Assembly: GCA_016764775.1 (NCBI GenBank)
Contig: JAESRE010000025.1
Span: 1 to 35,932, forward strand
Source: Alphaproteobacteria bacterium
GTDB taxonomy: Bacteria; Pseudomonadota; Alphaproteobacteria; Micavibrionales; Micavibrionaceae
DNA length: 35,932 bases
Reading direction: 5' to 3'
The notes under the pieces are model-generated. The model searched no databases. It worked only from the letters and a program-made list of their open reading frames with translations, and was not told the origin of the DNA. Positions 16,059-29,429 of this stretch are shown here, piece by piece (the stretch's first letter is position 1; every line of letters begins with the position of its first letter). Made by a program: the position numbers and the translations under genes.

Positions 16059-16327
16059 ATCATCGGTACAATCACTGGAACGCATAAGAACAGATAGCGT
16101 TCTTTCCCTTTTGCAAAGAAGAATCCGAGACTGAAGACGGCGCATACGGCCCATGTGATGATCGTGCCCAGAAAGAAGTCGTTATACAGGACATCCTCGC
16201 CGATGGTCTCGGGGAAGGCTGTATCGATAAGCCCCGATAGATAGGCGAAGTTGTAGCTGATGGCTGTTGAGGAGAACCCCAACAGGTTGGCGAATATAAA
16301 CAGAATGATATCGACGATACGACGCAT
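16016..16327 (-). CDS. Small polytopic membrane protein, unknown function
   Basis: 103 residues with three hydrophobic segments: about residues 4-24 (IVDIILFIFANLLGFSSTAIS), 52-75 (FFLGTIITWAVCAVFSLGFFFA) and 80-98 (YLFLCVPVIVPMIYGFNVL). I do not recognise the family. The strong hydrophobic periodicity and the absence of a competing frame in 16059-16327 support a real gene. No clear Shine-Dalgarno precedes ATG 16327. The stop lies inside the 3' end of the L,D-transpeptidase gene on the opposite strand, a 43-base tail-to-tail overlap. The terminator at 16355-16380 isolates it from the lipoprotein gene upstream, so its promoter must be short and close to the start. Confidence 0.55.
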   Translation of the reverse strand: MRRIVDIILFIFANLLGFSSTAISYNFAYLSGLIDTAFPETIGEDVLYNDFFLGTIITWAVCAVFSLGFFFAKGKERYLFLCVPVIVPMIYGFNVLNGLAALS

Positions 16328-18807: not shown

Positions 18808-19086
18808 CACTTTTTATTGTTATAAATCAACTTTTTATAAAAACGAATCACTTTCTCGCTTGTGCAAATTTTCACTTCTGTATATGGTGCCTATGAGTGT
18901 TTAGTGTATTGCGGTTTTAGCGCTTTAAAGGATTACTTAGGTTTCGCGAACTGCAATATCCAAAATTTGAAATAACGTTTCGCGCGATTTCGCGCCGTTC
19001 ACCCGTGGATGACACTCCGGGGCCTTTTCTCAAGAGGCAACGCACGCTCGAACAGGCAGCGCTCGCGCCACATATGGAGAAGCCCG
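18808..19086 (+). promoter_or_regulatory. Divergent cobB/rne intergenic region and rne 5' leader
   Basis: About 280 bp without a gene. It must hold the cobB promoter (minus) and the rne promoter and leader (plus). A GC-rich hairpin GCGCG-ATTT-CGCGC lies at 18982-18995, about 90 bases before the rne start. In E. coli the rne 5' leader is used for autoregulation by RNase E cleavage, so a structured leader here is suggestive only. A strong GGAGA at 19076-19080 fixes the rne start. No confident promoter hexamers were found. Confidence 0.35.
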
Positions 19087-21663
19087 ATGGCTAAAAAAAT
19101 GCTAATAGATGCAACGCATACAGAGGAAACTCGCGTTGCAGTCGTTGATAGTGGCCGCTTAGACGAATTTGATTACGAAAGCGCCTTCCGCAAACCCTTA
19201 AAAGGCAATATTTACCTCGCGAAAGTTACACGCGTCGAACCCTCATTGCAGGCGGCCTTTGTAAATTTCGGCGGTAACCGACACGGTTTCCTGCCTTTTT
19301 CTGAAATCCACCCTGATTACTTCCGTATTCCGATCGCCGACCGCGAAGCTTTGCTGGCCGAGCAGGAAGAAGAGCTGAAAAAGCATGACGAGGAAGAAGA
19401 TCTGGATGCCGACATCGATGACGATGATGACGAAGGTGATCTTGAAACCGTTGATGACGATAAAGACAGTGTCGATGAAGTCGGCGGTGACGGTTCATCC
19501 GAAGATGACGATTCCAAATCCAAAAAAGGATCAAAAGGTAAGTCCAAAAAATCCAAAAAGGATGATGATGACGATAACCGCGGCAATCGCAAAGATGATG
19601 ATGACGACGCCGACGGTAACAAGGCTGAAGACGACGATGATGACGAAGACGACAATAAAGGCAATCGCAGACGCGGTCGTCGTGGTGGTCGCGGACGTGG
19701 TCGTGGTGGTCGTGGACGTGGTGGCCGTAATTCGGCCCAACGTTCCAAGCGTGTAGAAGCCTATGACGATCTGGATGACGAGCAGAAGTTCCGTTTCAGC
19801 CTGCGTCGTAAGTACAAAATTCAGGAAGTGATCAAGCGTGGCCAGATTATGCTAGTGCAGGTTTCCAAGGAAGAACGCGGAAACAAAGGTGCGGCTGTGG
19901 GTTCATATTTGTCCCTGCCGGGCCGGTACTGTGTTCTGATGCCGAATAGCCCGCGTGCCGGCGGTATCTCCCGCAAAATATCGAACAACAAAGACCGCGC
20001 AAAAATGCGCGATATGATCAAGGAACTGGAAGTTCCGAAAGGTATGTCCGTGATCCTGCGTACGGCGGGTGTTACACGCACCAAAGCTGAAGTGAAGCGT
20101 GATCTGGATTACCTGTTGCGCTTGTGGAACACAATCCGTGAAACAACGCTGGAATCTTCTGCTCCTGCTTTGGTGTATGAGGAAGCCGACTTGATCAAAC
20201 GTGCGGTTCGTGACTTGTACACCCGTGATGTGAACGAAGTTCATGTGGCCGGCGAAGAAGGTTTCAAGACAGCCAAGAACTTCATGAAGCTGATGATTCC
20301 GTCACATGCTAAAAAAGTGATCGAATACAAAGATAACAGCATGTCACTGTTCAACAAACACCAAGTCGAAGACCAGATTGCGGAAATCGGCGAAACAACC
20401 GTAACGTTGAAATCCGGTGGCTATCTTGTCATCAACCCGACGGAAGCGCTTGTATCGATCGATGTGAACTCCGGTAAGGCGACCAAAGAGCGCCATATCG
20501 AGGAAACCGCGTTGAAGACCAACCTTGAAGCCGCTGAAGAGGTAGCGCGCCAGATGCGTTTGCGTGACCTTGGCGGTCTGGTTGTGATCGACTTTATTGA
20601 TATGGAAGACCGCCGTAATAACGGTAAGGTCGAGCGCAAAATGCGTGAGGCGCTTTCGGGTGACCGCGCACGTATTCAGGTCGGACGGATTTCATCCTTC
20701 GGTTTGATGGAAATGTCCAGACAGCGTTTGAGCCCGTCCTTGACGGAGTCCCAGTTCGAGGTTTGCCAGCAATGTGCGGGTACAGGCCGTGTGCGTACAG
20801 CCGATGCCGCGAGTATTCTGGTTTTGCGTGCAATCGAAGCCGAGGGTACTAAAGGCCGTGCAGCACAGGTGATAGCACATGTGCCGAATGAAGTGGCCTT
20901 GTACATCCTGAACCACAAACGTAAGAATTTGGCCGAGATCGAAGAGCGTTATAACTTTACCGTTCTGCTTCGCGTTGACAGCGCTTTGGCGGCATCCGAT
21001 CACCGTGTTGAGGTTTCCAAGCCTGCGAACAAGTCATCGGACGATGATGACGATGATCAGAACGACGACAACAACGACGATAACGATAATGACGACAAGT
21101 CAAAACGTGGTCGCAGACGCGGTCGTCGCGGCGGTCGTGGACGTGGTCGCGGTCGTGACAAAGATCAGAACGACGATAATGACAATAAAGGCTCCGACGA
21201 CTCTAAAGGTAATGACGAGAAGTCTGATGATTCTAAATCCGAAAAGGATTCTAAAAAGGATGATGATAACAAGAAGTCATCCGGCAAAAAGTCATCTTCC
21301 AAATCTTCAAAAAAGACAGAGAGGAAAGATGACGAAAAATCCGATAAGGACGATGGGAAAGACGATAAGAAGAAGTCTGCCCCTAAGAAATCATCATCCA
21401 AGAAGAAGGATGACGATGCCAAGGATTCCAAAAAAGATAAGGAGAAATCCGATAAGGATGACGGGAAAGACGATAAGAAGAAGTCTGCCCCTAAGAAATC
21501 ATCATCCAAAAAGAAGGATGACGATGCCAAGGATAAGCCTGTTAAGAAGGTGAAGGCATCAAATGATGACAAGCCTGCCGATCAGGATCCTAAGGATTAC
21601 GAAGTCGTCAACGCTGCGCCTGAGAAGAAGAAAAAGGGCTGGTGGAATAAGCTGACTGACTAA
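19087..21663 (+). CDS. rne: Ribonuclease E/G with split S1 domain and long repetitive charged tail
   Basis: 858 residues from ATG 19087, which has a GGAGA six bases upstream and the N-terminus MAKKMLIDATHTEETRVAV. RNase E makes the initiating endonucleolytic cuts in mRNA decay and rRNA processing. The S1 domain begins at about residue 35 and is interrupted at about 94-220 by an Asp/Glu/Lys-rich stretch and an Arg-Gly block, then resumes (RRKYKIQEVIKRGQIMLVQV). The catalytic core has magnesium ligands Asp459 (SIDVNSGK) and Asp502 (VIDFIDMED) and the zinc-link CQQC at 560-563. From about residue 640 the tail is low complexity: Asp/Asn runs, a second Arg-Gly block, Lys/Ser/Asp repeats including two copies of a 31-codon unit, and a terminal GWWNKL. 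The tail is the expected degradosome scaffold and RNA-binding part. Confidence 0.96.
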   Translation: MAKKMLIDATHTEETRVAVVDSGRLDEFDYESAFRKPLKGNIYLAKVTRVEPSLQAAFVNFGGNRHGFLPFSEIHPDYFRIPIADREALLAEQEEELKKHDEEEDLDADIDDDDDEGDLETVDDDKDSVDEVGGDGSSEDDDSKSKKGSKGKSKKSKKDDDDDNRGNRKDDDDDADGNKAEDDDDDEDDNKGNRRRGRRGGRGRGRGGRGRGGRNSAQRSKRVEAYDDLDDEQKFRFSLRRKYKIQEVIKRGQIMLVQVSKEERGNKGAAVGSYLSLPGRYCVLMPNSPRAGGISRKISNNKDRAKMRDMIKELEVPKGMSVILRTAGVTRTKAEVKRDLDYLLRLWNTIRETTLESSAPALVYEEADLIKRAVRDLYTRDVNEVHVAGEEGFKTAKNFMKLMIPSHAKKVIEYKDNSMSLFNKHQVEDQIAEIGETTVTLKSGGYLVINPTEALVSIDVNSGKATKERHIEETALKTNLEAAEEVARQMRLRDLGGLVVIDFIDMEDRRNNGKVERKMREALSGDRARIQVGRISSFGLMEMSRQRLSPSLTESQFEVCQQCAGTGRVRTADAASILVLRAIEAEGTKGRAAQVIAHVPNEVALYILNHKRKNLAEIEERYNFTVLLRVDSALAASDHRVEVSKPANKSSDDDDDDQNDDNNDDNDNDDKSKRGRRRGRRGGRGRGRGRDKDQNDDNDNKGSDDSKGNDEKSDDSKSEKDSKKDDDNKKSSGKKSSSKSSKKTERKDDEKSDKDDGKDDKKKSAPKKSSSKKKDDDAKDSKKDKEKSDKDDGKDDKKKSAPKKSSSKKKDDDAKDKPVKKVKASNDDKPADQDPKDYEVVNAAPEKKKKGWWNKLTD
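21334..21534 (+). repeat. Two near-identical 93-bp direct repeats in the rne 3' end
   Basis: Copies at 21334-21426 and 21442-21534, offset 108 bp, differ at only a few third-position bases. They encode the Lys/Asp/Ser-rich unit beginning EKSDKDDGKDDKKKSAPKK. The near identity at DNA level points to a recent duplication and makes repeat-number variation between strains likely. Confidence 0.9.
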
Positions 21664-22890: not shown

Positions 22891-23032
22891 GGCGCTCTTC
22901 AAAATATGATGCTCGAGCGATAAAAAGCCATAGCTGCGGCGTTTTTGCAAGTGATAACGGTCATTTAGGCTTCAAAATCCGTATTGTGCAGTGCGAATTT
23001 GGCTCAAAATCCTTAAAAATAAATCTCGAATT

Positions 23033-23125
23033 TTATTTACTTTCTATAAAGATTTTATGTGTTATGTTAAATATATAAGGACAAATGATTGGTAATAAGG
23101 GTGTTTTCAAAAAGATATCGATCAT
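23033..23125 (-). CDS. Possible 30-residue hydrophobic peptide
   Basis: A minus-strand frame starting MIDIFLKTPLLPIICPYIF and ending in KIFIESK, with a strong TGAGGAGAGA directly upstream of ATG 23125. The Shine-Dalgarno quality is better than for many real genes in this window, which is the main reason to list it. The product would be a single hydrophobic, weakly basic helix. No promoter is evident and AT-rich gaps produce such frames by chance, so this is tentative. Confidence 0.22.
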   Translation of the reverse strand: MIDIFLKTPLLPIICPYIFNITHKIFIESK

Positions 23126-23159
23126 TCTCTCCTCATTTTTGTATGTCACAGACCAGTGA
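23085..23159 (+). CDS. Possible 24-residue amphipathic peptide opposite the 30-residue frame
   Basis: A plus-strand frame with the peptide MIGNKGVFKKISIILSSFLY plus four residues, preceded by AAGGA three bases from the ATG. The spacing is short. A basic N-terminus followed by a hydrophobic stretch resembles membrane-acting peptides of type I toxin-antitoxin systems, but that is shape only. It ends just inside a hairpin followed by T6 (23143-23174). It overlaps the opposed 30-residue frame. Confidence 0.18.
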   Translation: MIGNKGVFKKISIILSSFLYVTDQ

Positions 23160-23296
23160 CTTGGGACATTTTTTAAGAGCGCAAAAGCGCCGAAAATACT
23201 GATCGGGCAAGGGAAGGCCCGCATGTTGTGTCCAAACAGGGTTCGTTAATACAGGTTATTTAAAATTTTGGTTTATCTCTTATGTCATGCGCACTG

Positions 23297-23374
23297 GCCT
23301 GTATGAGAGCTGAGGAACGATTTAAGTGTTGCCCCACGTAAAAATCCTTTAGCATTCATACAGGCTTTTTTTTT
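23297..23374 (+). ncRNA. Candidate structured small RNA ending in an intrinsic terminator
   Basis: GCCTGTATGA at 23297-23306 pairs perfectly with TCATACAGGC at 23356-23365; inside, GCTGAGGA (23309-23316) pairs with TCCTTTAGC (23345-23353) with one bulged T. The long hairpin is followed at once by nine T residues (23366-23374). The upstream gene on this side is on the other strand, so the hairpin is not simply that gene's terminator; on the plus strand nothing larger than the tentative 24-residue frame precedes it. It is either the 3' part of a small RNA transcribed from within the gap or a transcription-attenuation structure 50 bases before the secreted-protein gene. No convincing promoter hexamers were found. 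Confidence 0.45.
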
Positions 23375-23423
23375 GCCTGAAACAGCGCTAGATTACTATC
23401 AAATGCACAAATCAGGATCTTCT

Positions 23424-24167
23424 ATGAAACCGTATATTTTTCTTTCCGCACTCGTTATGGGTGTTTTCGTTTTTCCGGCCGTATCAATGTCACAGGAAGC
23501 CGACGCTGAAGCCGAGGCTGTCGAACCCTCGGATGCTGCCGTATCAGAAAAAACCCGCAGTGCCATGATCGAGGTCAGAGAGGCTGCGCAACGGTTCGTG
23601 GAAGACCTAACCCCCGAACAGGAAAGGCATTTTGGCGTTTTGTACGGGAATTACAATCTGATCAAAGTCGTGAAAACAGTGCGCGAGGATCTGGGTAACG
23701 CCATGGATTCCTGCGGTGAAGAAAACCCGGATATCAAAGAAGAGGCGTCGACCCGTTACGATGAATGGACCGAGGCTATCGACCCTGTTCTTGAGGACGC
23801 CGAAGCCAATGTCGCGAATATGATCGTGGCACAGGATTACGCCCGTCCGCGTGAATTCGACCAGTTTTTCAAGCTGGTGGACAAAGCCCGCGACCAAAAC
23901 AGTCAGGATGTCCAAAAAGTGCCTGTGACTTCACTGGAAGCGTGTCAGACCATGATTTCCAAAATGGATGAAACGCAGCCCAATATGATCGAACTTCTTA
24001 ATGCTACGCTGGTGAGCTTGCCCAAGGCGCTTCAGGAAGAAAAGCAGAAAGCGGAAGAAGAAGCCGCGAAGAAAGCTGCTGAAGAGGCTGAAAAGGCTGC
24101 CGAAGAAGCCGTAGCAGAGGACGCTGATGAGGAATCGGAAGAAACGGCAGAAGACGACGCTGAATAA
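23424..24167 (+). CDS. Secreted protein with helical domain and Glu/Lys/Ala coiled-coil tail
   Basis: 247 residues from ATG 23424, supported by AGGA six bases upstream. A signal peptide is clear (MKPYIFLSALVMGVFVFPAV, cleavage near SMS or SQA). An acidic Ala/Glu linker follows, then a mostly helical domain (about residues 45-205) with two cysteines, in AMDSCGEEN and SLEACQTM, which could form a disulfide in the periplasm. The last 45 residues are almost only Glu, Ala, Lys and Asp (EEAAKKAAEEAEKAAEEA), a charged single helix or coiled coil. I do not recognise the family. It precedes the giant gene by 234 bp, with its own promoter between them, so common regulation is possible but not shown. 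Confidence 0.8.
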   Translation: MKPYIFLSALVMGVFVFPAVSMSQEADAEAEAVEPSDAAVSEKTRSAMIEVREAAQRFVEDLTPEQERHFGVLYGNYNLIKVVKTVREDLGNAMDSCGEENPDIKEEASTRYDEWTEAIDPVLEDAEANVANMIVAQDYARPREFDQFFKLVDKARDQNSQDVQKVPVTSLEACQTMISKMDETQPNMIELLNATLVSLPKALQEEKQKAEEEAAKKAAEEAEKAAEEAVAEDADEESEETAEDDAE

Positions 24168-24401: not shown

Positions 24402-27400
24402 ATGGCGGATATAGCCGAAAATCCTGCAGCACAGAGGCTCATTGAGGGCTTGTCAGGCGTTGGAGCAAGATTCTCCGACCCGAGTGCTGTCACGGATGCC
24501 GAGCTTCAGCGCGAAACCATAAGTTTCCTACAAAAACTAAACAGTATCATGGCCGAAGAAGGCCAAACGCCGACGCCTATTACGACGGTGGATGCTGCTA
24601 CCTTACAAAACCTCCGAACCCAGATAGAACGAAATTTTAATAGAGCGGACGATAACGGTGTAACCGGATTAGAAAAGCTACGCGCTCTTGTTGACGGGGA
24701 TGTTGATACCCTACTTGCCGGTGCGGATATAGCTTCACGCGTCCTTGGAGCGAGCGAACTGAACTCGATTTACCGTTCAGGTTCAAAAGCAGAGAATGCG
24801 AGAGATGCGCTGATATTTGCGGCGTCTCATGATGAAGATACGATGCGCCTGTTGCAGACACTTCGCCGCGATGCTCCTGGTATTCTGAACAACCTTCCCG
24901 CTGCCGTAGCTTTACTTGAAGGCTCCGATGACATGCTTGCTGATTTGCAAACGCTGGCCGATGCGGGTCTGTATGATACGACCCCAACCATGCCGGGTGT
25001 GGGTGCGCCTGCTGATCCGGCTCAGGAATATACGGCTGCGATCTCGGCATTAGAAGCCGCAGCAGGCTCAACGAACACAGACGGCGCATGGGACAGTACG
25101 GACAGGCAAGCCATGCAGACCATGTTCCGCGCGATGCAAAACAGTTCCTTTTACGGTGAAGGCTGGACCGGTCCTAAAGACGGTATATATGACGCGGCTT
25201 TCCGTGCCCATCTGGATTCCAAACTCGCGGCAATGCCGGATTCGGACACCCGTAAAGCCGAATTACAGTCACTTCTGAACAATATTGATGTGGTCGTTTC
25301 GCGCGCCGACACGATTACGCCGGAACGTTTGACAGTTCGTTCCGCCATTTTAAGAGTCGAGCAAGGCCTTACGGTTATTGCCCCGCAGATCAACAGTACC
25401 CTTGAGGATGCACAGGAAAGAATGAGCGGCAGCACAGGACTGGCCGCTTTATTCCAGTCTTTTGCCCAAATCGGCATTCTGGACCACCGCATTCCTGAAA
25501 TAACAGCACCGGACGAGAATTTTGACCTGCGTTCGCAGGCCGCATTGCAAGGATTTATGATTTTCCTGAGTGACCCGATGGTTATGAACATTCCGGGTGA
25601 AAACAACTGGTATTATACCCCTGAAAAAGGGCAGTTCATTCTGGCAAATCTGGATAACCTCAAAGACAAGATCAAACGTATGATCGGTGAGGAAGAGTAC
25701 AACAATCAGAACCTTGATGAGATGCTGACGCGGGACAACCTTGTTCCTTTAATTGAAGCGCTGGACTTTCTGTCAGAACAAGACCCGCCAAGACTTGCGC
25801 AACAATTGTTGTTTAACAGCGGCAATATTGATACGCCACAGTACACAATCGATTTATTCCAAAACCTGATTTCGGAACCTGCGGACGAGCAGGCCAGAGA
25901 GTATCTGGCGGAGTTCGGCGCACACCGTATTGCAGGCATGGCGACGCATAATCCGGACATGTTGAAGCTTATGGATGTTCTGACCCGTGAATATACAGGT
26001 CAATACGGTTTGATGGACCTTATGCCCGACCTCGAAGGTACAGAGGCTCTGGATGATATTGACGGTTCGATCCCCCGTGAGCAATTGATTGCGAATTTAT
26101 ACAAGGCAGCACGCGCCAAGCATCAAGAGAACGGCCATGGCGACACGATGGACCAAGACATGTTTATCATGATTAGCACCATCAATACTTTGCCGTTCGG
26201 TTCTACCGAATATCGCCGTAATTATGAGCGTATGATGCGCGATGCCATTGAAGCTGCTAACGAAATCAGTGATCCGGATGAAGCAGCCCGCATTTTTGCG
26301 GAACGCGTTTCTGACGGTATGGCACAGCTTGAAGCGCAAAACGGCACCCCACAACATACGCAAATATATGAGCGCAGTGCACCGGCATGGAAGCCTGGAT
26401 TGGAAAACATGACGATTACATCCGAAGGGGAAACCTTTACGGCGTCTGACATTGCTGTGTTCTACGACAACTATCACATTCTGGCGCCGGGTAACCCGTT
26501 TCAGGATGACCTGCAAACGGATTTCATCGACTTGCATGGCTATGTGACGTTCAAGGATGATAACGACAATATTTACGTTGCCGGTATTGATAAAGAGTCG
26601 ATGATCTTCAGTGTCGAGCGCATTGATCCCGCGCGGATTTTGGAAATTTATTATGACTCGAGCATGGATACCGAGCAAAAACGCGCAGCGATGATTGAAG
26701 CTGATCCGGGCTTTGCCCTGTTGGCCGGCATTCATGGTGCTGCGGGCGCGGAAGCCGCTGTTATTAACTTCAGAGCCTTTGATAATGTGCGTTCGTTCAA
26801 AAGCCGGGCCGCAGATTATCAAAGGGATGTTGATGCGATCAGAGAACGTACGACAGCCGAGCAGGCAGAAAGAGATGCCTATATTCCACCATACGCGAAC
26901 AGTGTTTCCGCGGCGGAGAATGATGCTCCATCAACGGCAGCGCGCTTTAGTTCGGCGGCAGGTCCTCCCGATGTGTTCTCGGATACGACGAGAGACCGTA
27001 CGCAGATTCTTGCTGATCTTGATTCCTTGCGAAACTTTGCCAATGACGAATTGAATTCTTCGCCGCGCGTTATCATGGCACACGAGACGGGCATAATGGA
27101 TATGCTTCGTCGTAACGATATTACGGGGCCGGATGGCCGCCCTATTGAATTGCCTGTCGGTAATTATCCCGGCATTTCGAGTTTACGTGTTGAACATGTG
27201 GATTTGCCGCCAGAGGGCACGACAGGACAAATGCTTTCCTATTATGACTGGGATGCCAATACGGTCAGAGTTATTCCTATGCCTGATTATCTGGTTGATC
27301 CGGAGCGCCGTGCCGAACTTAAAGCGATGGCTGCATCCGGTGCGGATAGTGCAGACTTTATGCGCAGTATCCAGCAGGATTATCCTGAACTGTTTGCCGT

Positions 27401-27869
27401 TATCCAGCAATACCGTACCGGCGGATATGGTGGCGGCATTGTCGTTGAAGGCAGTCCGATCGGACTTAATGAATACACGCAGTTCAAAACGTCCATGCAC
27501 GGTTTAATCCGTAGTCTGGAACGTGATATCCGCGACCATGCTTATGTCGAGCCTGTCGAGCCGAGAACGGCAGATACGTTTTGGGATAACATGCGTAACG
27601 CCCGCGATGGTGTGTTGAATACACCAAGCAGGATCGGACGTCATTTTGAAGAGCGTTACGGCGACTTTGATCCGGAAGCTGCTGGCGAAGGTATACGTCA
27701 ATTGCCTGAACGTGTAGTTGACGGTGCTGTTTCGGTAGTTAAAGGCATTGGAAGCCGTGCAGAAGAAGTTGCCGACCAGATTACAGGCGAACGTGAAAGT
27801 ACGGGGCTATCCCATCAAATTCACGGTACTGCAACGACTGTGCATGACCCAGGCTTGAACGGCCAATAA
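24402..27869 (+). CDS. 1155-residue cysteine-free protein of unknown function
   Basis: I do not recognise this protein or any domain in it. It is acidic, has no signal peptide, no membrane helix and no cysteine in 1155 residues. The first 660 residues look all-helical, with many short amphipathic helices. Residues about 670-800 look more beta-rich (MTITSEGETFTASDIAVFYDN, then YVTFKDDNDNIYVAGIDKE). A Ser/Ala/Pro linker lies near 825-865, then a mixed domain (about 870-1040) including YYDWDANTVRVIPMPDYL and a Gly-rich TGGYGGG, and a basic-acidic helical tail to 1155. The absence of Cys in so large a protein is typical of secreted substrates, but no RTX repeats are seen. ATG 24402 has GAGGGTG upstream. 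Codon use resembles the neighbours. Confidence 0.85.
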   Translation: MADIAENPAAQRLIEGLSGVGARFSDPSAVTDAELQRETISFLQKLNSIMAEEGQTPTPITTVDAATLQNLRTQIERNFNRADDNGVTGLEKLRALVDGDVDTLLAGADIASRVLGASELNSIYRSGSKAENARDALIFAASHDEDTMRLLQTLRRDAPGILNNLPAAVALLEGSDDMLADLQTLADAGLYDTTPTMPGVGAPADPAQEYTAAISALEAAAGSTNTDGAWDSTDRQAMQTMFRAMQNSSFYGEGWTGPKDGIYDAAFRAHLDSKLAAMPDSDTRKAELQSLLNNIDVVVSRADTITPERLTVRSAILRVEQGLTVIAPQINSTLEDAQERMSGSTGLAALFQSFAQIGILDHRIPEITAPDENFDLRSQAALQGFMIFLSDPMVMNIPGENNWYYTPEKGQFILANLDNLKDKIKRMIGEEEYNNQNLDEMLTRDNLVPLIEALDFLSEQDPPRLAQQLLFNSGNIDTPQYTIDLFQNLISEPADEQAREYLAEFGAHRIAGMATHNPDMLKLMDVLTREYTGQYGLMDLMPDLEGTEALDDIDGSIPREQLIANLYKAARAKHQENGHGDTMDQDMFIMISTINTLPFGSTEYRRNYERMMRDAIEAANEISDPDEAARIFAERVSDGMAQLEAQNGTPQHTQIYERSAPAWKPGLENMTITSEGETFTASDIAVFYDNYHILAPGNPFQDDLQTDFIDLHGYVTFKDDNDNIYVAGIDKESMIFSVERIDPARILEIYYDSSMDTEQKRAAMIEADPGFALLAGIHGAAGAEAAVINFRAFDNVRSFKSRAADYQRDVDAIRERTTAEQAERDAYIPPYANSVSAAENDAPSTAARFSSAAGPPDVFSDTTRDRTQILADLDSLRNFANDELNSSPRVIMAHETGIMDMLRRNDITGPDGRPIELPVGNYPGISSLRVEHVDLPPEGTTGQMLSYYDWDANTVRVIPMPDYLVDPERRAELKAMAASGADSADFMRSIQQDYPELFAVIQQYRTGGYGGGIVVEGSPIGLNEYTQFKTSMHGLIRSLERDIRDHAYVEPVEPRTADTFWDNMRNARDGVLNTPSRIGRHFEERYGDFDPEAAGEGIRQLPERVVDGAVSVVKGIGSRAEEVADQITGERESTGLSHQIHGTATTVHDPGLNGQ

Positions 27870-27956: not shown

Positions 27957-29429
27957 ATGGCTGAATCCGACGCAAAATCCCAACCGCAAAATAGTGAGCA
28001 AGAAAACAAGCTGACCAGTACGCAGTTTGATGAATTTAAAGAGTCGCTGGAGCTTTTATATACGATCGCCAATTTGAGTGCGCGCATTCAGTTTGCGCAG
28101 AAATGGCCTGCTGCTGCGGAATTCGTGCTGGGTGAAGACCTGATGCAATATGACCGCGAAGGCGTGAAGTCCCAAGATGAGAAAGAAGACCGCGCGGAGT
28201 TGGAGAAGAAAGCCGAAGACAAGCGCATCACGCTGTTGGAATTCATGGATACGATCGAGGAAAAAAGCGTCGATAAAGGTGCTTTGCAGATCGAGTATGT
28301 GAAAGAGGCCATGGGCAAGCTTGGTCGTGACCTGTCCTTGCTGATATACGGAGAGCATCTGGTTGACCGTTTTCTTCCTGCTTCCCCTGAAGAGTTGACG
28401 AAAAAGGAAGAAGAGAGTGAAGCTGAGAATGCTGAAGGTGCTGAGGCGCCTGCAGCGGGTGCACCAGCCGAAGTGGCGGCGGAACCAAAACCCGATACGC
28501 CCTCACCGGAAACGCCGCCTGTTGCACCTGTCGCGGAAAGCACCCCGCCTGAAAATCCTGACGGGCCTACAGATGTTACACCCGAGACGTTGTCCGAGCC
28601 TGTTGCGGGCGCTATGAGTGCAGAGGAGAGTGGCGCACCGAAAATCCATCACGATCCGATGGATGATGTTAAGCCGATTGATTTGGAGCCTCCGTCATCA
28701 CCCGAAGCTCCGCAAGCCGAAACACCCGAAGCTGCGCCCGAGCCAACACCCGCCGAACCTTCGGCGCCTGAACAAGCTGAAGCCGCAGAGGAACCACCTT
28801 TGCCGCCCGAAGACATTCCGCCTGTTGACGAGCCGCCTGCGTCGGTGTCGAAAAGTGACGTGATCAAACCGCTTGAGGGTGAAGCACCACATTTGGTTGA
28901 GGAAGACGCGCACAACCCGATTGATACAGAACAGGTTAAGGCCGAAGATGATGATCCGGCTGTGCCGTTGGTATCGGAAGAACCATCAGCCCCTCAGGCG
29001 CCACCGGCTCCTCCCGCTGGTGCGGCACCGTTATCACCGCCGCCGCCATCATCACCATCAGCCCCGATAGCGCCGTCGTCTCCGAGTCAGGAGGCCGAGA
29101 AACCGCAAGCACCGTTGGAGCAACCCGAACCCGATGTTACGCCGCCGCAAGCGCCGGAACCTTCTAAAGACCGAGCGTCTGCGCCGCCACCGCCTCCACC
29201 ACCGGGGCAGGCTACACCGCCACCACCACCGGCAGGTGAAGCTAAACCGCCGGAGCCGCCTGTGTCTCCGCCGCCGTCACCACAGCAACCGGAACAAGCT
29301 CCACCGCAAACCCAGAGCGGGGAGACAACCCAAAAGCCTGTGACCATGAAGTTTGTGTCTTCAAAGGATAAGAAGCCTGAAGAACAGGGCGGGGAAGCCG
29401 AGAAAAAAGACGAGAACGATCAGGGCTAG
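27957..29429 (+). CDS. Cysteine-free protein with helical head and long Pro/Glu/Ala-rich tail
   Basis: 490 residues. The first 140 or so form a helical, charged head (TSTQFDEFKESLELLYTIAN, KWPAAAEFVLGEDLMQYDRE, LLIYGEHLVDRFLPASPEEL). The rest is low complexity: Pro, Glu, Ala and Ser, with a run of seven prolines and one of five near residues 405-425, and a charged KKDENDQG end. No cysteine, signal peptide or membrane helix. Such a tail is likely disordered and could bind partners or span distance; poly-proline runs would depend on EF-P for translation. The family is unknown. It follows the giant gene by 87 bp without a visible terminator, so the two may be co-transcribed. Its stop codon overlaps the ctaA stop on the other strand. 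Confidence 0.8.
   Translation: MAESDAKSQPQNSEQENKLTSTQFDEFKESLELLYTIANLSARIQFAQKWPAAAEFVLGEDLMQYDREGVKSQDEKEDRAELEKKAEDKRITLLEFMDTIEEKSVDKGALQIEYVKEAMGKLGRDLSLLIYGEHLVDRFLPASPEELTKKEEESEAENAEGAEAPAAGAPAEVAAEPKPDTPSPETPPVAPVAESTPPENPDGPTDVTPETLSEPVAGAMSAEESGAPKIHHDPMDDVKPIDLEPPSSPEAPQAETPEAAPEPTPAEPSAPEQAEAAEEPPLPPEDIPPVDEPPASVSKSDVIKPLEGEAPHLVEEDAHNPIDTEQVKAEDDDPAVPLVSEEPSAPQAPPAPPAGAAPLSPPPPSSPSAPIAPSSPSQEAEKPQAPLEQPEPDVTPPQAPEPSKDRASAPPPPPPPGQATPPPPPAGEAKPPEPPVSPPPSPQQPEQAPPQTQSGETTQKPVTMKFVSSKDKKPEEQGGEAEKKDENDQG

Follow-up and report, generated by a model that had tools for sequence, protein, structure and literature searches.

A candidate small RNA gene with a C-rich loop hairpin, conserved in a family of Micavibrio-type Alphaproteobacteria

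We find that a hairpin followed by nine T residues, at positions 23297-23374 of the plus strand of contig JAESRE010000025.1, probably forms the 3' end of a free-standing gene for a small non-coding RNA, which sequence comparison places in an undescribed, structurally conserved family of Micavibrio-type Alphaproteobacteria. The window, that is, the whole stretch of DNA analyzed, is 35,932 nt long. The RNA looks like an undescribed family within a known class, that of bacterial small RNAs with a C-rich loop. Its relatives are spread over many genera of one alphaproteobacterial family, including Micavibrio aeruginosavorus, usually with one strong match per genome; they are convincing only in this family and lie near an orphan secreted protein that is itself confined to it. 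The RNA gives a way into the regulation of a family that has an epibiotic bacterial predator (Micavibrio) among its members, and it appears to show a small peptide ORF being gained or lost within one RNA gene.

The hairpin can be read directly from the sequence. Its outer stem consists of 10 perfect base pairs between GCCTGTATGA (23297-23306) and TCATACAGGC (23356-23365), which close a hairpin of 69 nt (23297-23365, plus strand); together with the T9 run (23366-23374), where the U tail and 3' end of the RNA would lie, the element measures 78 nt. Stem, length and T run are all as originally predicted. The minimum free energy of 23290-23380 is -32.1 kcal/mol, against a mean of -17.55 for 200 dinucleotide shuffles, none of which equaled it (z = -5.20). 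The minus strand of the region also folds stably (z = -4.01, equaled by 1 of 200 shuffles), but has no T tail there. An inner stem is present too, although not in the form of 8 bp with one bulge that had been proposed for it: the predicted fold has 7 bp, an internal loop, and then 5 bp plus 3 bp around the loop UUGCCC. By fold, covariation and the window-type covariance model (R2), the outer stem of the main hairpin is conserved, the inner stem changes fast and the apical loop is GTTGCCCCAC. A rho-independent terminator has a GC-containing stem and then a U run, and sequence and fold give the hairpin and T9 both; in the window's lineage the main hairpin doubles as terminator stem. The element is absent from the list of a simple terminator scan, the pattern of which was limited to loops of 3-8.

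This hairpin forms the 3' portion of a conserved locus that is considerably longer (approximately 23017-23374), as seen from blastn blocks and from the individual loci read; the original prediction had fallen short of the full extent of the RNA, with conserved blocks reaching back to 23017. The locus opens with a highly conserved promoter-like block, AATTTTATTTACTTTCTATAAAGATTTTATGTGTTATGTTAAATATATAAG (23017-23079, plus strand), which is 74-90% identical to blocks in other genera of the family; a sigma-70 consensus scan of 23017-23079 gave no plus-strand site. We infer from the sequence that the RNA starts just after this block, at about 23070-23082. Farther along the plus strand come a small ORF of 24 amino acids after AAGGA (23085-23159), a conserved motif GACCAGYGA..GGGACA (23151-23169), the reading frame of which differs between genera (frames by eye), and a small hairpin with a purine loop, CGGGC-AAGGGAAG-GCCCG (23204-23221), seen in folds and in the relatives read. 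The stem of this small hairpin is CGAGC/GCTCG in the nearest relative (L003) and TGAGC/GCTCA in L004. A conserved box, TTTATCTCTTATGTCATGCGCAC (23272-23294, plus strand), supported by blastn, relatives and folds, precedes the main hairpin. In full-length folds it pairs partially with upstream sequence, differently in each relative; the box is a possible second pairing region. Pairing of the GACCAGYG motif with CACTGG before the hairpin was considered by eye and set aside, being lost in genus g8. The plan of the window group is a promoter-like block, GACCAGYGA..GGGACA, the purine-loop hairpin, the box TTTATCTCTTATGTCATGYGC, the C-rich-loop hairpin and a T run, with some members lacking some blocks.

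The surroundings are largely those first described. The gene to the left indeed points away, being a Glu/Leu/Phe/Val-dehydrogenase-type gene (Pfam PF02812 and PF00208) on the minus strand. The statement that there is no sizeable plus-strand gene upstream needs the qualification that the ORF at 23085-23159 is present, unconserved in the nearest relative; we do not claim this ORF of 24 codons as a gene because it has only 7 codons in L003.

Relatives were sought in 104 genomes of the same family. A blastn search with 601 bases around the element gave matches in 32 of these, mainly to the blocks 23017-23079 and ~23271-23306, a count that includes chance matches, at least those in G067 (C77, upstream of an unrelated gene) and G076 (L030, excluded before the neighbor count over 28 loci given below). 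This genome (G000) has only one blastn match, which speaks against a multi-copy repeat. A covariance model built on 16 window-type sequences, the window included (R2), matched 22 of 104 genomes, comprising its 16 source genomes (E <= 2.2e-12), four of genus g35 weakly and two at chance level. Its match in the window, itself an R2 source, spans 23284-23374. A second model, R1, was built from 15 sequences of a distant, two-hairpin type, with a structure summed from single-sequence pair probabilities. It matched 56 of 104 genomes at E <= 0.1 (its 15 sources and 41 others), and neither the window nor five of its six same-genus relatives was among the matched loci; in the sixth relative R1 has one match, at a different locus. 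Beyond the family, a class-level search with R1 found only weak matches, in 9 of 289 genomes (E 3.9e-4 to 8e-3), which is hardly more than chance would yield over so many genomes.

Inspection of weak R1 matches (G061, G100, G016:C80, G050:C169 and G058) showed mostly terminators without a C-rich-loop hairpin. The match in G088 (E 2.6e-4) has a hairpin and a terminator, with a loop that lacks CCCC, and was not counted as a copy. Further weak matches lie in G072:C14, G017, G087:C7, G083, G084 and G001:C15. An R1 match places the RNA of G039 at C1:383719-383865, and two records of metagenome-assembled genomes (MAGs), JAUIIA010000004.1 (L032) and JAJFGR010000022.1 (L033), carry the window type. 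No RNA match was found in the stretches examined of L034 and L035 ('Micavibrio sp.' MAG), records with a related dehydrogenase. Two irregular loci deserve mention. One, L179 (G054:C54:3935-4046), is an additional locus of a same-genus genome, with a long hairpin, loop CTTTCCCCCACAC and a terminator (E 0.001), and is possibly a paralogous RNA. At L085 (G031, 877-923), TGTCATGCGCAC stands directly before a different terminator hairpin and the secreted-protein gene (R2 E 2e-5), seemingly as a short degenerate form.

The RNA comes in two forms. The distant form, found by reading upstream of 60 more secreted-protein orthologs, is shorter and consists of an apical TTGCCCCGCA hairpin, a linker TTGTCCCCTT and a terminator GCCGCCGG..CCGGCGGC-T. 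It is often found with the secreted-protein gene on one side and, on the other, a gene judged RNase E-like from the tail of its translation. Genera g8, g30 and g35 have a separate GC-rich terminator after the long hairpin; in the window's genus the second hairpin is absent and the loop hairpin itself ends in a T run. The g35 loci are intermediate, with a window-like 5' half and a 3' half like that of the distant type, and they are matched by R1 (E 4e-9 to 1.2e-6) and weakly by R2 (E 4.4e-4 to 0.03). What links the two forms is not one covariance model but their position, promoter and loop, together with these g35 intermediates. The loop hairpin appears to have taken over the terminator role in the window's lineage, with the sequence outside the loop turning over.

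Covarying base pairs, which the original prediction had named as a check, are present as compensatory changes across genera in the alignments of both models. The R1 alignment (A5, 52 rows) has two-sided changes in 28 of 29 pairs; 87.6% of its cells are paired, compared with 32-47% for slid pairings. It was fitted to its own structure and includes two reverse-strand terminator-only matches and the doubtful locus L179. In the R2 alignment (A6, 24 distinct rows, including one reverse-strand match and the short degenerate L085), 8 of 12 pairs show two-sided changes and 97.9% of cells are paired, against 17-47% when slid; A5 and A6 are each biased toward the model behind them. In the MAFFT alignment A4, which was not fitted, 3 of 12 outer-stem pairs have two-sided changes, most others being invariant. 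RNAalifold recovered the terminator stem alone on alignment A2 and the outer stem alone on A4, few stems because MAFFT misaligns those that change fast. Sequences folded singly had a mean z of -4.96 (n = 41, 25 of them chosen with the help of fold and loop), with all values negative and the highest -1.8. On the aligned sequences, maintenance of the stems by compensatory change across genera is supported.

Such conservation makes it scarcely credible that the element is a plain intrinsic terminator with no further function, even though a stem plus T9 is what such a terminator looks like. A plain terminator would account neither for the conserved apical loop nor for the long stem with its asymmetric bulge. 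Nor does it fit with conservation across the family at one locus and in unlinked copies, or with the separate terminator hairpin that stands alongside in most RNA-bearing genera.

A search of Rfam release 15 at the gathering cut-off found no match in the whole window, in agreement with the earlier failure to place the element among known RNAs, and none in 16 homologous loci; below the cut-off there were three chance-level matches only (E 1.6-2.9). The RNA is like 6S RNA (RF00013) in being structured, in its long hairpin and in being widespread in the family, but 6S has no match at this locus and the genome's own 6S match lies elsewhere, at C22:10762-10959. The parts of the Micavibrio literature on small RNA, sRNA and noncoding RNA-seq that we consulted yielded no such RNA, and the parts consulted of the M. 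aeruginosavorus ARL-13 paper make no mention of one.

The usual downstream neighbor is a gene for a secreted, all-helical orphan protein (family A1; 23424-24167, plus strand, with the start taken as 23424). An ortholog lies downstream in 27 of 28 blastn loci (L030 having been dropped beforehand, and the sole miss, L019, being a locus cut by a contig end), as against 2 of 28 for the window's upstream dehydrogenase. With a profile of 24 of these proteins, orthologs turned up in 97 of the 104 family genomes; among 289 class-wide genomes only three had one, all of this family. The predicted structure is all-helical (mean pLDDT 87), and 13 columns are invariant across the 24 sequences of A1. No NCBIfam or Pfam family was matched by more than 3 of the 24 members, none convincingly; no PDB sequence matched; the best Foldseek E was 0.12; and VIA gave a best Z of 9.2 at rmsd 7.5, which falls among the values of common helical arrangements. 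Along the window an RNase E-like ORF (19009-21663) comes first, followed by the dehydrogenase gene on the opposite strand, then the RNA and finally the gene for the secreted protein.

This neighborhood bears on the other half of the original prediction, which left a choice between a small RNA and a leader attenuator. As an attenuator or riboswitch-like leader, the element would be a conditional terminator through which transcription from the promoter at 23017-23079 reads into 23424-24167. We keep this reading in play because the RNA lies immediately upstream of the same gene, with a model match on the same strand, in 58 of 97 protein-bearing genomes at E <= 0.01, and the near-constant downstream neighbor among the blastn loci, compared with the rarely shared upstream one, also favors it. 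At E <= 0.1 the adjacency holds in 60 of 97 genomes, with the RNA 42-326 nt before the protein match. A cis-acting leader, however, always stands upstream of the gene it controls, and strong copies of this RNA occur elsewhere. The copy in G033 (E 1.4e-12), a genome with no detectable protein gene, lies between aminotransferase-like and arginyl-tRNA-synthetase-like genes (names read from translations). Those in G103 (E 1.2e-9), beside an mnmA-like gene, and G006 (E 3.1e-6), between RNase E-like and CBS-domain-like genes, have the protein gene on another contig; none of the three is an R1 source. Conversely, a model match at E <= 0.1 is missing beside 37 of 97 protein genes. Diverged forms escape the models, however: reading by eye, which covered a part of these 37 (others, such as G063, G066, G081 and G082, excepted), shows the RNA in at least G019, G069 and G078. 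In some genera the protein gene directly follows an RNase E-like or other gene, with no RNA seen.

The protein gene may also have a promoter of its own. A candidate -10 box, GCTAGATTA (23387-23395, plus strand), is a possible part of a separate promoter, as a motif recognized post hoc. Of 27 loci, 18 have a GCTA/TCTA box, which we take to resemble the -10 of alphaproteobacterial housekeeping promoters, no more than 26 nt past the T run; 2000 mononucleotide shuffles gave a mean of 5.0 and a maximum of 13, for a motif and distance picked after seeing the sequences. This arrangement suggests, at the level of sequence, that the terminator T run and the promoter of the next gene overlap. The box is of GCTA type and 12 nt past the T run in the window, L003, L004, L007 and L011. 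Because of the unlinked copies, the unaccompanied protein genes and this possible -10 box, we favor a free-standing RNA gene with a habitual neighbor over an obligatory leader; the small RNA is the better supported half of the original pair, and the attenuator is rather unlikely. The secreted-protein gene often stands beside the RNA and may be its target or be regulated together with it, but it is not an obligatory component.

How might a free-standing RNA of this kind act? By analogy with known systems, it would most likely be a base-pairing sRNA acting through its CCCC loop, as GsrN or PmaR do. A trans-acting, Hfq-dependent sRNA is expected to have a free-standing gene with a promoter and an intrinsic terminator of its own, to which the conserved promoter-like block, the T run and the unlinked copies in three genomes might correspond. 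Most RNA relatives have a C-rich apical loop (UUGCCCC). In 23 of 28 loci, the window included, CCCC is found in the 130 nt that precede the final T run, against a mean of 6.2 and a maximum of 13 in 1000 mononucleotide shuffles; these loci were recruited through the promoter block or the pre-hairpin box, with matches that also covered the loop in L003, L004 and L016. Two of the misses, L005 and L021, were anchored on a later T run and have CCCC by eye. Among the 16 window-type members three lack CCCC, of which L007 and L017 have CCC and L022 has neither. Hfq is encoded in this genome (C38:14037-14222, E 1.6e-30) and in 28 of the 31 family genomes searched.

On this model of a base-pairing sRNA, transcription would start near 23075 and stop at 23374, giving an RNA of about 300 nt. 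Hfq would bind its U tail, and the exposed UUGCCCC loop would pair with G-rich or ribosome-binding stretches of mRNAs, as the conserved UCUCUUAUGUCAUG box perhaps would too; pairing would then change the translation or stability of the target. Exact 10-mer complements of the loop (TGGGGCAACA) occur at 15 sites in three genomes that share it, three of these being the RNA itself. Among the remaining 12, one is antisense to such an ORF and 11 fall within a same-strand ORF of at least 80 codons. No site coincides with a ribosome-binding site; one (L211) follows a possible start codon at a distance of 27 nt. Trans pairing with mRNA targets is accordingly put forward as our inference, to which this exact-10-mer search lends no support.

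The closest parallel is GsrN, an alphaproteobacterial stress sRNA of Caulobacter crescentus with a conserved, exposed C-rich loop; in the predicted fold, GTTGCCCCAC is exposed and C-rich in the same way. Sigma-EcfG promoters have the motif GGAAC-N15-18-CGTT. The window holds three exact matches to it, the nearest ending at 16101, and identity with GsrN was rejected on promoter grounds, with no sigma-EcfG-type match at the locus near 23 kb; the neighbors differ as well. GsrN depends on sigma-T, its homologs usually lie near general-stress-response genes, and its C-rich loop pairs with a G-rich mRNA leader (PMC5869019). PmaR of Agrobacterium tumefaciens has, by its description, a long stem topped by a C-rich single-stranded loop, as here, whereas the present RNA is set apart by its conserved promoter-like block and, in most genera, by a terminator hairpin of its own beside the loop hairpin. 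The PmaR loop binds targets (PMC6234868), and the C-rich loops of both GsrN and PmaR matter for target regulation (PMC5869019, PMC6234868).

The conserved purine-rich loop AAGGGAAG at 23204-23221, present besides the C-rich loop, might instead point to an RNA that binds a protein, as a sponge, a 6S-like or a CsrA-type RNA, rather than mRNAs. CsrA sponges have many GGA loops. This locus has only one or two, it matches no Rfam family, and 6S RNA is encoded elsewhere in the genome, all of which makes a protein-binding role very improbable next to base pairing.

Three sister genera carry a further element. In g8 (L018, L020 and L024), g30 (L012, L014 and L015) and g35 (L021, L023, L025 and L026), the promoter is followed immediately by an ORF 29-61 codons long, the N-terminal half of which is hydrophobic; it occupies the place of the window's 24-codon ORF. 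All nine within-genus comparisons, most of them restricted to the ungapped N-terminal part, gave pS above pN in its coding frame: 0.67 and 0.05 (L018/L020), 0.61 and 0.09 (L020/L024), 0.87 and 0.11 (L025/L026), 0.81 and 0.18 (L021/L025), 0.76 and 0.24 (L023/L026), 0.47 and 0.12 (L012/L014), 0.47 and 0.25 (L021/L023), and, weakest, 0.32 and 0.19 (L018/L024) and 0.23 and 0.08 (L021/L026). In other frames such an excess is seen less, yet sometimes, for example in frame 1 of L021/L026 (0.17 versus 0.10) and of L012/L014 (0.26 versus 0.14). A small membrane-type peptide apparently evolves under purifying selection in g8, g30 and g35, where the transcript may not be purely non-coding. A selected-looking peptide in three sister genera makes a dual-function RNA possible. 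SgrS is a dual-function RNA, its peptide being SgrT. The loci of these genera are like it in combining a small ORF with a C-rich-loop hairpin; unlike SgrT, the peptide here is predicted to be of membrane type, and the window's lineage lacks it. We tentatively entertain a dual-function RNA across the whole lineage, with a peptide and a C-rich seed hairpin, from which the window's lineage lost the peptide and fused the hairpin with the terminator. That reading takes in both the peptide encoded in several genera and the adjoining orphan secreted helical protein. A literature search on dual-function terms found nothing.

The same ORFs could mean that the chief product of the locus is a short mRNA encoding a membrane mini-protein, with the hairpin serving mainly as its 3' UTR and terminator and with the ORF decayed in the window's lineage. 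Their position straight after the promoter and the excess of pS in 9 of 9 pairs, mostly clearer than in other frames, fit such an mRNA. Against it, hairpin, loop and promoter persist where the ORF is short or absent, the distant type leaves little room between promoter-like sequence and hairpin (by eye), and a plain terminator needs neither a conserved C-rich loop nor a second terminator hairpin. We regard the mini-protein mRNA as distinctly improbable and retain the small non-coding RNA as our account of the locus.

Some minor features of coding sequence were also recorded. Downstream of the locus, two plus-strand ORFs, 24402-27869 (1155 amino acids) and 27957-29429 (proline-rich, 490 amino acids), have no Pfam match at E <= 0.1. 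The ORF at 19009-21663, named RNase E/G-like from reading, has long acidic and lysine-rich stretches. In the small ORFs of g8 and g35, the codons of a C-terminal GPA/RPA-EG and, in some, of RAGEG overlap nucleotide motifs kept in the window's RNA.
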